Below, piece by piece: positions 9,546-17,862 of a stretch of 64,000 nt of DNA. The position numbers and the translations under genes are program-made. The DNA is taken from contig JAPTYO010000001.1 in the NCBI GenBank assembly GCA_036873135.1, forward strand, positions 53,204,624 to 53,268,623. The letters are read 5' to 3'. Each line of letters starts with the position of its first letter. Within the stretch, counting starts at the first letter, position 1. The DNA is from Clarkia xantiana subsp. parviflora (Eukaryota; Streptophyta; Magnoliopsida; Myrtales; Onagraceae). Under the pieces are notes generated by a model, which worked only from the letters and a program-made list of their open reading frames with translations, did not search any database and was not told the origin of the DNA.

Positions 9546-10895
9546 TTAAGATTGAGGCTTCTCCCACTTGAGCGGCTTCACCACCTCCCACGTAAAATCA
9601 GCATCATCCCTTCCGAAATGCCCATACGCCGCCGTTTTCAGGAACCTCCCATTCCCGCCCCTCTTAAGATCCAAGTTGATCGAGATCATCCCGGGCCTGA
9701 AATCGAACGTCTCCTTCACAATCTTCAGAATCTCCCTGTCGGGAATCTTCCCGGTTCCGTAGGTATCGACGAAAACCGACAAAGGCTCGGGGACACCGAT
9801 AGCGTAAGACACCTGTACGATACATCTCCGAGCGAGCCCATTCGCGACGATGCTCTTGGCAGCTTGTCGGACAATGTAGGCCCCGCTCCGGTCCACCTTG
9901 GTCGGGTCCTTGCCGGAGAAGGCACCGCCTCCGTGGGCCCCCCACCCTCCGTAGGTGTCGATGATGATCTTCCTCCCGGTGAGACCGGCGTCCCCGTGGG
10001 GACCACCGATGACGAACCGACCCGATGGGTTGAGATGGAAGATGGTTTTTTCGTCGAGGTATTTCTCGGGGACGACGGGGTTGATGACGTGTTTTTTAAG
10101 GTCAGCGGCGATCTCGTCGTTAGTTACGGTCTCATCGTGCTGGGTTGAGATCAGGACAGTGTGGACTCGGACCGGGACCATTGCACCGTCCTCGTTGTAG
10201 TACTCGACGGTGACCTGCAGGGACGAAGCCAGAAAATATTTTCGGGGAGTTAGGGCAACAAACTATTTTAAAAATATTTTAGAGGCAAATGTAAGGTTTT
10301 AATGGGTCAAACTGACAATTATTACAAATTTTAGAGTAAAAATTGCACATCACAAAAAGTTAACTCGCATCACTGGACTGACCTGGGTCTTTCCATCGGG
10401 CCTAAGCCACGGGCATGTCCCGTTCTTTCTAACCTCGGTGAGCTTAGCACCGAGCTTGGTCGCTAGGACGTGGCTCAGAGGCATCAGTTCGGGGGTTTCG
10501 TCAGTGGCGTACCCGAACATGTGGCCCTGATCACCCGCACCGATCTCTTCGGGGCGCTTGGTGAGGTGGCCGTGGACTCCTTGGGCGATATCGGGGGACT
10601 GCTGCTCAATGTTGACTAGGACCTTGCAGTGGTCGGCATCGAGACCCACGTCATCGGACACGAACCCGATGGTTCGGCAAGTGTCACGGACGATTTTTTC
10701 ATAGTCCACATTGGCCTTGGTCGTAATTTCACCGAAAACCATGACCATGTTGGTCTTGGTGCAGGTCTCACAGGCGACCTTGCTGTCGGGGTCCTGCTCG
10801 AGGCAGGCGTCGAGGACTGCATCGGAGATCTGGTCGCAGAGCTTGTCTGGGTGGCCCTCGTTGACGGACTCGGAGGTGAATAGGAAGGTCTCCAT
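9546..10895 (-). CDS. SAMS: S-adenosylmethionine synthetase, coding region in two exons
   Basis: Exons 10895-10383 and 10214-9546 encode 393 residues, the standard plant length. The enzyme makes S-adenosylmethionine from methionine and ATP in the cytosol and nucleus. Visible family motifs are GHPDK (residues 14-18, substrate/ATP region), the GAGDQG signature (119-124) and the GGGAFSGKD loop in the C-terminal third. The protein starts [16 protein letters not shown] and ends [12 protein letters not shown], both typical. The start ATG at 10895 follows a 5'-UTR intron (10905-11905, donor GTAAAT, acceptor TTTGCAG). The oddity is a second, 168-bp intron inside the coding region (10215-10382) between the codons of KTQ and VTVEYY. 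Plant SAMS coding regions are normally uninterrupted, and this intron is homologous to the transposon-derived intron of the LHCB1 gene nearby. Splicing restores the conserved frame exactly. Confidence 0.97.
10215..10382 (-). mobile_element. Introner-like intron in SAMS, relative of the LHCB1 hAT intron
   Basis: On the coding strand the donor is CAG|GTCAGT and the acceptor CCCTGCAG|GTCACC. The sequence aligns along most of its length with the LHCB1 intron in the same orientation. Shared blocks, in order, are TTTTTGTGATG, GCAATTTTTA, TAAAATTTGTAAT, CTTACATTTGCC, TGCCC, and the 3' end CTGGCTTCGTCCCTG. Both introns are 168 bp. The 3' boundary is followed by CAGGTCAC and the 5' boundary contains CAGGTCAG, a 7/8 match, consistent with a slightly decayed 8-bp target duplication. 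The left terminus is diverged (CCAGTGATGCGAG rather than CAGGGAC...). A CCCTAAC motif upstream of the acceptor is a good branch-point candidate. Confidence 0.8.
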
Positions 10896-10904
10896 TTCCT
10901 TAAT

Positions 10905-11905
10905 CTGCAAATGATCAACTGTTAAGCAAGATAGTAACACCTAACAAGATCTCAATTCAGCAATCTCCATTTCTTCACATTTATCCAACAGAAATTTACA
11001 AAATAGAATCATACTCGAATTAAGCATCTACCTAGAACACTGTTTTGAATCATTATAATAGTAGTTGGCCAAAAAAAATCATTATAATAGTAGCCTTACT
11101 TCAGCTTCATCATCACTAGTATTATCTAGTCACACACAAAGAAATCTGCTACAAAGCAAGAAACTAACAAGATCTCAACTCAGTGATGTCCATTTCTTCT
11201 TGTTTATCCAGCAAAAATTTACAAAATAGAATCATACTCAAATTAAGCATCTACCTTGTTTTGAATCAGTAAAACAGTAGAGCCTTACTTCAGCTTCACC
11301 ATCACTAGTACAATCTAGTATTACACAAAGAAATCTGCAACTAAGCAAGAAACTAACAAGATCTCAATTCAGTGATGTCCATTTCTCTAGATTTTCTAGT
11401 CAGAATGCAAGTTTAAGTAATCAAAAGGAATATCAAATGCAAGAAAACGCAAATTAAGCATCTAAACTATAACATTGCTTTGAATCTTCTTGATAGTAGC
11501 TTTACTTCAGCTTCATCATCACGATAACTATCCACTGATAAACCGACTAGAAAAATTAGAGACGGATTTGTATCTGAACAGCAACTCAAACTTGACCTAG
11601 TACAGATCTAGCTTTCAAAGCAGCACTGCCATGGCAAAATCGACAGCCTCGGTAACCAGATCCAATCAACAACACGACGAAGCACCAAATCCACATTTCA
11701 ACTAAAAACCACAACTATTTACAAATTAAACAGCCAAAATCATCCAGATCTCTGCATATTCGACAACCTACATGATATACTGCATTTGTTTTTCAATTTT
11801 CTCAAATTCGGAGCATGAAATCAAAGTTCAGATCCAGCAATAACGTTAAAGAAGAAGATTCAAGGCAAGGAAACGGGATCAATTTAGTGAAATTAAGAAA
11901 TTTAC
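10905..11905 (-). other. SAMS 5'-UTR intron with three tandem repeats
   Basis: A leader intron just before the ATG is typical for plant SAMS genes. About 600 bp of it consists of roughly three imperfect copies of a unit of about 190-220 bp, starting near 10943, 11166 and 11355. Each contains AACAAGATCTCAA, a CCATTTCTTC-like block, AAATTTACAAAATAGAATCATACT (first two copies), AATTAAGCATCTA and TTACTTCAGCTTCA. Splice sites are GTAAAT (coding strand, at 11905) and TTTGCAG (at 10905). Confidence 0.8.
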
Positions 11906-12011
11906 TTGATTTCGTTCAAAGGAAAAGGAGCAGCAACCAAGATATTGTAGATAAAATGTAGGGAGGGAAGGTGAATCGCAATGAGTTAGGAATCAGTGGC
12001 GGGTATTTATA
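11906..12011 (-). promoter_or_regulatory. SAMS core promoter and first UTR exon
   Basis: TATAAATA reads on the minus strand at 12011-12004. About 30 bases downstream the pyrimidine-rich untranslated first exon would begin. That exon ends at 11906 with the donor of the leader intron. Confidence 0.65.

Positions 12012-16896: not shown

Positions 16897-17862
<966 letters not shown>

Follow-up and report, generated by a model that had tools for sequence, protein, structure and literature searches.

How did two genes of Clarkia xantiana subsp. parviflora, a SAM synthetase gene (SAMS) and an LHCB1 gene, come to have introns of related sequence within their coding regions? Both genes lie in the window, i.e., the whole 64,000-nucleotide stretch of DNA that was analysed. 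Among the 120 matches listed for a PPR protein encoded in the window, the best named one is from Punica granatum (69% identity, a value equalled by one unnamed match), which suggests a place in the Myrtales. To our knowledge, the coding regions of LHCB1 genes usually lack introns. The same had been claimed for plant SAMS genes in a sequence-only reading of this locus and, as far as the relevant passages of PMC9141922 go, it is backed for cotton, in which the longest SAMS gene sequence is 1182 bp, supporting intronless coding regions.

Two related introns in the window

The sequence-only reading proposed that the SAMS and LHCB1 introns are homologous, that they lie in the same orientation and that a mobile, splice-competent element is their source, and it named an alignment no better than that of shuffled AT-rich introns as evidence to the contrary. 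The local alignment of the two introns scored 93, while 2000 dinucleotide-preserving shuffled pairs had a mean of 19.0 (sd 2.8) and a maximum of 34; the global score was 133 against a maximum of 47 among 2000 dinucleotide-shuffled pairs, and with one intron reversed the local score was only 21. Because these scores far exceed those of the shuffled pairs, the two introns are true relatives, and a chance resemblance of AT-rich sequences is excluded. All five sequence blocks that had been listed as common to both introns were located. The local alignment begins within the introns, 15-21 bases from the 5' splice site, and extends to the common 3' terminus CTGGCTTCGTCCCTG, an exact 15-mer that occurs twice within the 64-kb window, in the SAMS and LHCB1 introns only. 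A stretch at position 2017 of the window that was considered as a third copy was dropped; its local score of 39 is near the shuffle maximum of 34.

Both introns are 168 bp long with GT..AG ends (Table 1). The SAMS intron sits at CAG|GT, as had been reported, and its removal restores the conserved sequence: the joined gene is one 408-codon open frame, and in the alignment of its protein with the SAM synthetase chain 6vcz_A, which covers 393 residues, the junction is free of gaps. Removal of the other intron likewise gives the full LHCB1 frame. The near-duplicate flank that had been noticed at the SAMS intron proved real, with CAGGTCAG and CAGGTCAC matching at 7/8 positions; its best interpretation is an 8-bp target-site duplication (TSD). 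At LHCB1 the two flanks, TCCAGGTG/TCCAGGTG, match at 8/8. The LHCB1 element starts with CAGGGACAGATC, and the 5' end of the SAMS element is diverged, with no recognisable terminal repeat. Very probably, a copy of a non-autonomous hAT-type transposon of ~200 bp makes up the SAMS intron, which was created when this element inserted into a coding exon.

Table 1. Features of the SAMS and LHCB1 genes, in positions of the window
Feature	Position	Strand	Details
SAM synthetase exon 5' of the new intron	10383..10895	-	ATG 10895, ends ...GGAAAGACCCAG; Pfam S-AdoMet_synt_N and first part of _M; 6vcz_A alignment
SAMS coding intron (predicted)	10215..10382	-	168 bp, phase 0, GTCAGT...CCCTGCAG, 35% GC, three in-frame stops
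Putative hAT-type non-autonomous element in the SAMS intron	10218..10377	-	160 bp; 3' terminal repeat CTGGCTTCGTCCCTG = 10232-10218; 5' end diverged
Candidate SAMS upstream TSD CAGGTCAG	10378..10385	-	would give 5' splice site CAG|GTCAG
Candidate SAMS downstream TSD CAGGTCAC	10210..10217	-	would give 3' splice site CAG|GTCAC; site = CAAGTCAC in the 99% paralog
SAM synthetase exon 3' of the new intron, with stop	9546..10214	-	Pfam rest of S-AdoMet_synt_M and _C; 6vcz_A alignment
LHCB1 exon 5' of the new intron	16897..17204	+	ATG 16897; joined frame, paralog matches
LHCB1 coding intron (predicted)	17205..17372	+	168 bp, phase 2, two in-frame stops
Putative hAT-type element in the LHCB1 intron	17208..17367	+	160 bp, CAGGGACAGATC...CTGGCTTCGTCCCTG
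Candidate LHCB1 upstream TSD TCCAGGTG	17200..17207	+	would give 5' splice site TCCAG|GTG
Candidate LHCB1 downstream TSD TCCAGGTG	17368..17375	+	would give 3' splice site TCCAG|GTG
LHCB1 exon 3' of the new intron, with stop	17373..17862	+	Pfam Chloroa_b-bind; LHCB1 chains among PDB matches

Upstream of the SAMS start codon, near-repeated segments were noticed by eye at 10900-11920; this region is probably a 5' UTR intron of SAMS.

The element family and its apparent coding introns

The genome of the plant itself (59 contigs, 695.6 Mb) was searched at the DNA level with three queries, the SAMS, L013 and LHCB1 introns, which gave 396, 356 and 305 first-look candidates, of which 40 were scored in each search (41, 40 and 41 matches listed). 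At this word level, the candidates for the family number in the hundreds. The resulting sample of 84 distinct copies (40, plus 18 new, plus 25 new, plus LHCB1) was not selected by flank, and, as all of the queries were coding introns, it may favour their nearer kin. It leaves out the matches at C28:235956 (first search) and C28:235954 (third search), which lie inside L007, and L064, which was matched in the third search as well; L083, L077 and L043, found through terminal-repeat or AGGT searches, also stand outside it.

The short terminal inverted repeats of hAT elements typically start with CAGGG. The family consensus, built from 41 copies, is ~200 bp long (CAGGGACGGATCTAG...CTGGCTTCGTCCCTG) and has short terminal inverted repeats of the hAT kind, CAGGGACGGATC / CTGGCTTCGTCCCTG. 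Because of these ends and the 8-bp TSD, the family is read as a non-autonomous hAT-type element (MITE). Its TSDs are real: flanks with at most one mismatch were found in 23/84 copies, while flanks mispaired 200 times gave a mean of 2.2 and a maximum of 7, and a perfect 8-mer was found in 7/84 copies (mispaired mean 0.1, maximum 1). Among the 74 copies that were not classed as coding introns, 16 have a TSD with at most one mismatch (mispaired mean 2.1, maximum 6). The mean K2P distance to the consensus is 0.116 for the ten coding introns and 0.163 for the 74 others; an old family would explain the decay of most other TSDs. One copy (L011) has perfect ends and no TSD. Since the family is old, scans for exact terminal repeats are too strict, and most of the loci that they returned have no family core. 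The hAT dimerisation domain PF05699 has at least 150 matches in the genome (150 scored of 447 first-look candidates), many of them in long open frames; among the scored matches, no hAT transposase with matching ends and no autonomous partner was found, and none was linked to family ends. The ends at C1:20238661 and C1:20245163 were considered as one autonomous element, a reading that was rejected because the second end belongs to a separate complete family copy.

The genome-wide search that had been suggested revealed further apparent coding introns in unrelated genes. Ten of the 84 copies were classed as de novo coding introns: SAMS, LHCB1, L006 (K+ transporter), L010 (no Pfam hit), L013 (LRR kinase), L024 (PC-esterase, GC-AG), L035 (PHT1 transporter), L040 (multicopper oxidase), L088 (P450) and L093 (UGT). 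The other 74/84 were not so classed. This proportion indicates that the family is a general MITE that is now and then turned into an intron. The proposal of a mobile intron-making element is supported and can be refined to a hAT-type MITE, and we infer from sequence that the copies in SAMS, LHCB1 and the other coding sites are spliced out as introns.

Six of the ten were rated as strong. The weaker ones are L010, whose left side has 22 codons; L024, with its GC-AG splice sites; L088, with two TSD mismatches; and L093, with shifted ends, an ambiguous TSD, an ORF of 157 and a Pfam match that stops before the junction. A Pfam domain spans the junction in SAMS, L006 (K_trans_C), L024 (PC-Esterase), L018, L035, L083 and L088, and the PHT1 protein of L035 also aligns through it; in L013 and L040 the junction falls between Pfam matches rather than within one. 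All ten introns and L083 would introduce in-frame stops if unspliced (for L040 the 5' site was taken 9 nt upstream, in the same frame). The GC content of the introns is 30-37% compared to 49-61% in the flanking exons. In LHCB1, L006, L010, L013 and L035, each splice site falls within one copy of a perfect 8-bp duplication, and the position of AGGT within the 8-mer varies (TCCAG|GTG, CAG|GTACT, GATCAG|GT, TCAG|GTAC, CAG|GTGGG). These straddling TSDs, together with the empty paralog sites at SAMS, LHCB1 and L088, are the evidence for insertion into exons.

Outside the ten, L083 (P450), L077 and L043, a short relative of the family in an RG-lyase gene with a 698-codon joined frame, are extra cases. 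The L077 copy lies at a coding site and holds a nested insertion of ~400 bp, and the framing TCAGGTAC/TCAGGTGC is kept. Another copy, L018, lies within a pectate lyase exon (AAGGTCAT/CATGTCAT) and the downstream AG is lost; it may reflect a gene that was broken or an intron that has decayed. Four further copies (L106, L117, L037 and L097) sit on apparent 3' splice sites of older introns with the AG within the TSD; we take L106 to be WRKY-like and L037/L097 to be subtilase genes. L028 and L103 were left without a class.

Empty sites, AGGT and the fate of insertions

The paralogs of the two genes provide the relative timing of the insertions. The SAMS paralog at C4:1668149-1669327 matches 393/393 residues at 99% identity and is uninterrupted, its site being CAAGTCAC. 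Five further SAMS matches are also uninterrupted at this site (C4:16343093 and C9:11088928, 94%; C4:36141109, C7:52419334 and C11:19012087, 90-93%), and the last three have introns at other positions. Six LHCB1-like matches (88-95% identity) continue through residue 103 without a break. The LHCB1 gene that adjoins the 99% SAMS paralog has a 361-bp intron at the LHCB1 site, the last 110 bp of which match the LHCB1 intron of the window (score 64; maximum 47 in 500 shuffles), while the first 80 bp show no match to it (34 vs a shuffle maximum of 44). As the LHCB1 intron is present in both blocks, its insertion is older than the block duplication. Most simply, the SAMS copy, which is absent from the duplicate block, would have been gained after that duplication. 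The P450 gene L083 has no interruption at the position of the element in its paralog L088 (76% identical).

The SAMS intron could instead predate the block duplication and have been lost precisely from the 99% paralog. Two observations favour such a loss: the neighbouring LHCB1 intron is common to both blocks, and, at C4:19552070, a third SAMS gene is interrupted by an intron of 385 bp at exactly the base where the SAMS intron of the window lies (L128, C4:19552550-19552995; flanks CAGGTGAT/CAGGTGAC, end CTACGTCCCTG). However, this intron compared with that of the window scored 47, no better than shuffles (maximum 52). Its 5' half scored 65 against the family (maximum 51 in 500 shuffles) and 66 against its own reversed 3' half (shuffle maximum 55), forming an inverted repeat. 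It is read as a different hAT-like element that would have entered the same target independently. The SAMS coding sequence holds eight AGGT sites, two of them CAGGT, which makes a second hit at one site not far-fetched if insertions are filtered by survivorship. Given that the five further SAMS paralogs are uninterrupted as well, we regard the loss as unlikely, and a gain after the duplication is preferred.

We propose the following course of intron gain. The sequence displays hAT-like ends, a duplicated 8-bp target and, in coding copies, an AG|G within this target that in almost every case reads AG|GT. Of the two duplicates, the one upstream offers the 5' splice site and the one downstream the 3' splice site, and a cut at these sites takes out the element together with one duplicate and restores the reading frame. 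Presumably, a hAT transposase acting in trans made the insertion. The element may be spliced thanks to its AT-richness and to a pyrimidine-rich stretch before the 3' splice site in the sense orientation. Exonic insertions without AGGT or in the opposite orientation would have broken genes and then been lost. The family would act as an introner through the survivorship of MITE insertions, without seeking AGGT.

Several tests bear on this proposal. When coding status was ignored, CAGGT was the commonest 5-mer in register in both flanks, being found in 6/59 copies (the next in 3); SAMS also has CAGGT but was missed by the boundary finder and is counted among the 53 non-AGGT copies. A joined sense-strand frame of at least 180 codons, taking the better of the plain-collapse and splice-like joins, was present in 5/6 AGGT copies vs 6/53 others (Fisher p 5e-4). 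After plain collapse of the 84 copies, 11 sense-strand frames but one antisense frame reached 150 codons, and the copy with the latter is open on the sense strand too. Seven of the 11 sense frames belong to the ten coding introns and four lie outside them (L018, L020, L033 and L103); L010, L088 and L093 have fewer than 150 codons in the plain collapse. Among the 23 copies whose TSD has at most one mismatch, AGGT was found in both duplicates of 6/7 coding vs 0/16 other copies, a comparison that is partly circular, since AG|G at the join had itself served to define the coding class, while the 5-mer, collapse and mispairing tests are less so.

An alternative to a selection-filtered MITE is a specialised introner with active targeting of AGGT or of transcribed exons, which would agree with the 6/7 coding copies and with the insertions that are also found at AG|G exon edges. 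It is nevertheless improbable. The lack of AGGT from all 16 other copies is explained better by survivorship than by targeting, and these 16 TSDs are mostly real (16 vs a mispaired mean of 2.1); moreover, the variable offset of AGGT in the TSD is expected if the 8-mers were filtered afterwards. Still less credence can be given to the idea that the elements entered pre-existing introns and that the genes gained none. The four copies at the edges of apparent older introns would fit it, as would a distant LHCB pair on C10 (75%), which has its own intron 14 nt from the LHCB1 site. Yet the C10 intron differs in base and phase, the SAMS, LHCB1 and L088 sites are uninterrupted in paralogs, and where perfect TSDs straddle the splice sites no older intron sequence remains. 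For introner-like elements of fungi, spread by an RNA route has been proposed, in which reverse splicing precedes reverse transcription. Such a route is scarcely credible here: the ten coding copies do share their gene-relative orientation, in a splice search that covered that strand, but DNA transposition is indicated by the 8-bp duplications, the terminal inverted repeats and the occurrence of copies outside genes.

Returning to survivorship of MITE insertions, we find it rather probable, with clearly less confidence than for the SAMS intron itself, that this family and its relatives drove a wave of intron gain, with tens of new coding introns genome-wide under the rule of an 8-bp TSD with AGGT and sense orientation. 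Two of these gains would have struck one and the same base in two SAMS paralogs independently, through different hAT-like elements. The figure of tens is a guess from scaling 10/84, in a non-random sample, to several hundred candidates.

Known systems and introns outside the family

Plant hAT MITEs are noncoding, about 200 bp long and have hAT-like terminal repeats. The Clarkia family resembles them in size, ends, lack of coding capacity and its hundreds of candidate copies; we know of no description of such MITEs as a repeated source of coding introns. Maize Ds/Ds1 belong to the hAT superfamily, and work by Dennis (1988), Wessler (1991) and Giroux (1994) reportedly found them spliced as introns in single-gene mutant alleles. 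The Clarkia case differs from these alleles in that, in about ten genes, one family forms apparent introns that leave the frame intact. According to passages of PMC3260210, maize Ac/Ds elements have the ends C/TAGGGATGAAA and 8-bp duplications; the 8-bp TSD is shared and the ends are near the CAGGGACGGA of the Clarkia family. In rice, 2/5 introns gained after segmental duplication resembled transposable elements, and the passages of PMC1779517 concerned mention neither a family common to these introns nor a mechanism through TSDs nor a rule for splice sites, in which they differ from our findings.

The closest comparison is the survey by Gozashti et al. 2022 (PMC9860276), whose relevant passages are followed here. 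They report introners in 175/3,325 genomes and in no land plants, a dearth called striking; among 835 animal and land-plant genomes, introners occurred in two groups only, both animals. Families with at least four introns were kept in that survey (PMC9860276, same passages); the Clarkia family has similar introns in unrelated genes in 10/84 sampled copies, as well as in L083 and L077. As in the surveyed introners, one sequence family forms introns in unrelated genes through insertion into exons, and many of those families have the TSD and terminal inverted repeat signs of DNA transposition. In the introners of Florenciella, both splice sites can likewise be co-opted from the insertion site, and the concentration in exons or genes varies among introner families (PMC9860276, in the passages followed). 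Unlike them, the Clarkia family is a hAT-type MITE with an 8-bp TSD that lies mostly outside coding exons and belongs to a flowering plant. By title or abstract, no report of an introner family in a land plant was found among the matches listed from the openly licensed literature (CC0, CC BY, CC BY-SA). Given the precedents in maize Ds alleles and rice gains and, in the passages cited, the 2022 survey without a land-plant family, the earlier remark that such elements are not well known in flowering plants can be called justified.

By its sequence features, then, the Clarkia family can be regarded as an introner-like family in a flowering plant. If this is true, land plants do not lack introners, and similarity surveys may miss families as old as this one (mean K2P 0.12-0.16 to the consensus). 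The origin of new introns is a long-standing question; a datable family with empty-site paralogs in one genome would make the mechanism of gain testable, and plants offer good transformation and RNA tools. Additionally, the rule of an 8-bp hAT duplication with AGGT and sense orientation offers a concrete criterion for searches of other plant genomes.

Some paralogs of the two genes have coding introns whose sequence is unlike the family, and they were rejected as members of it. In one SAMS paralog such an intron lies at about residue 75 (L129, C4:36140820-36141145), for which no second match was found in the genome. An LHCB1 paralog has a short AT-rich intron, unrelated in sequence, at about residue 131 (L131, C8:3442580-3442750). 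A SAMS fragment at C1:46297824-46298102 starts at residue 170, adjoining the junction, and a further SAMS paralog has an intron at about residue 306 (L130, C7:52420210-52420410) with CAGGTTT on both sides.
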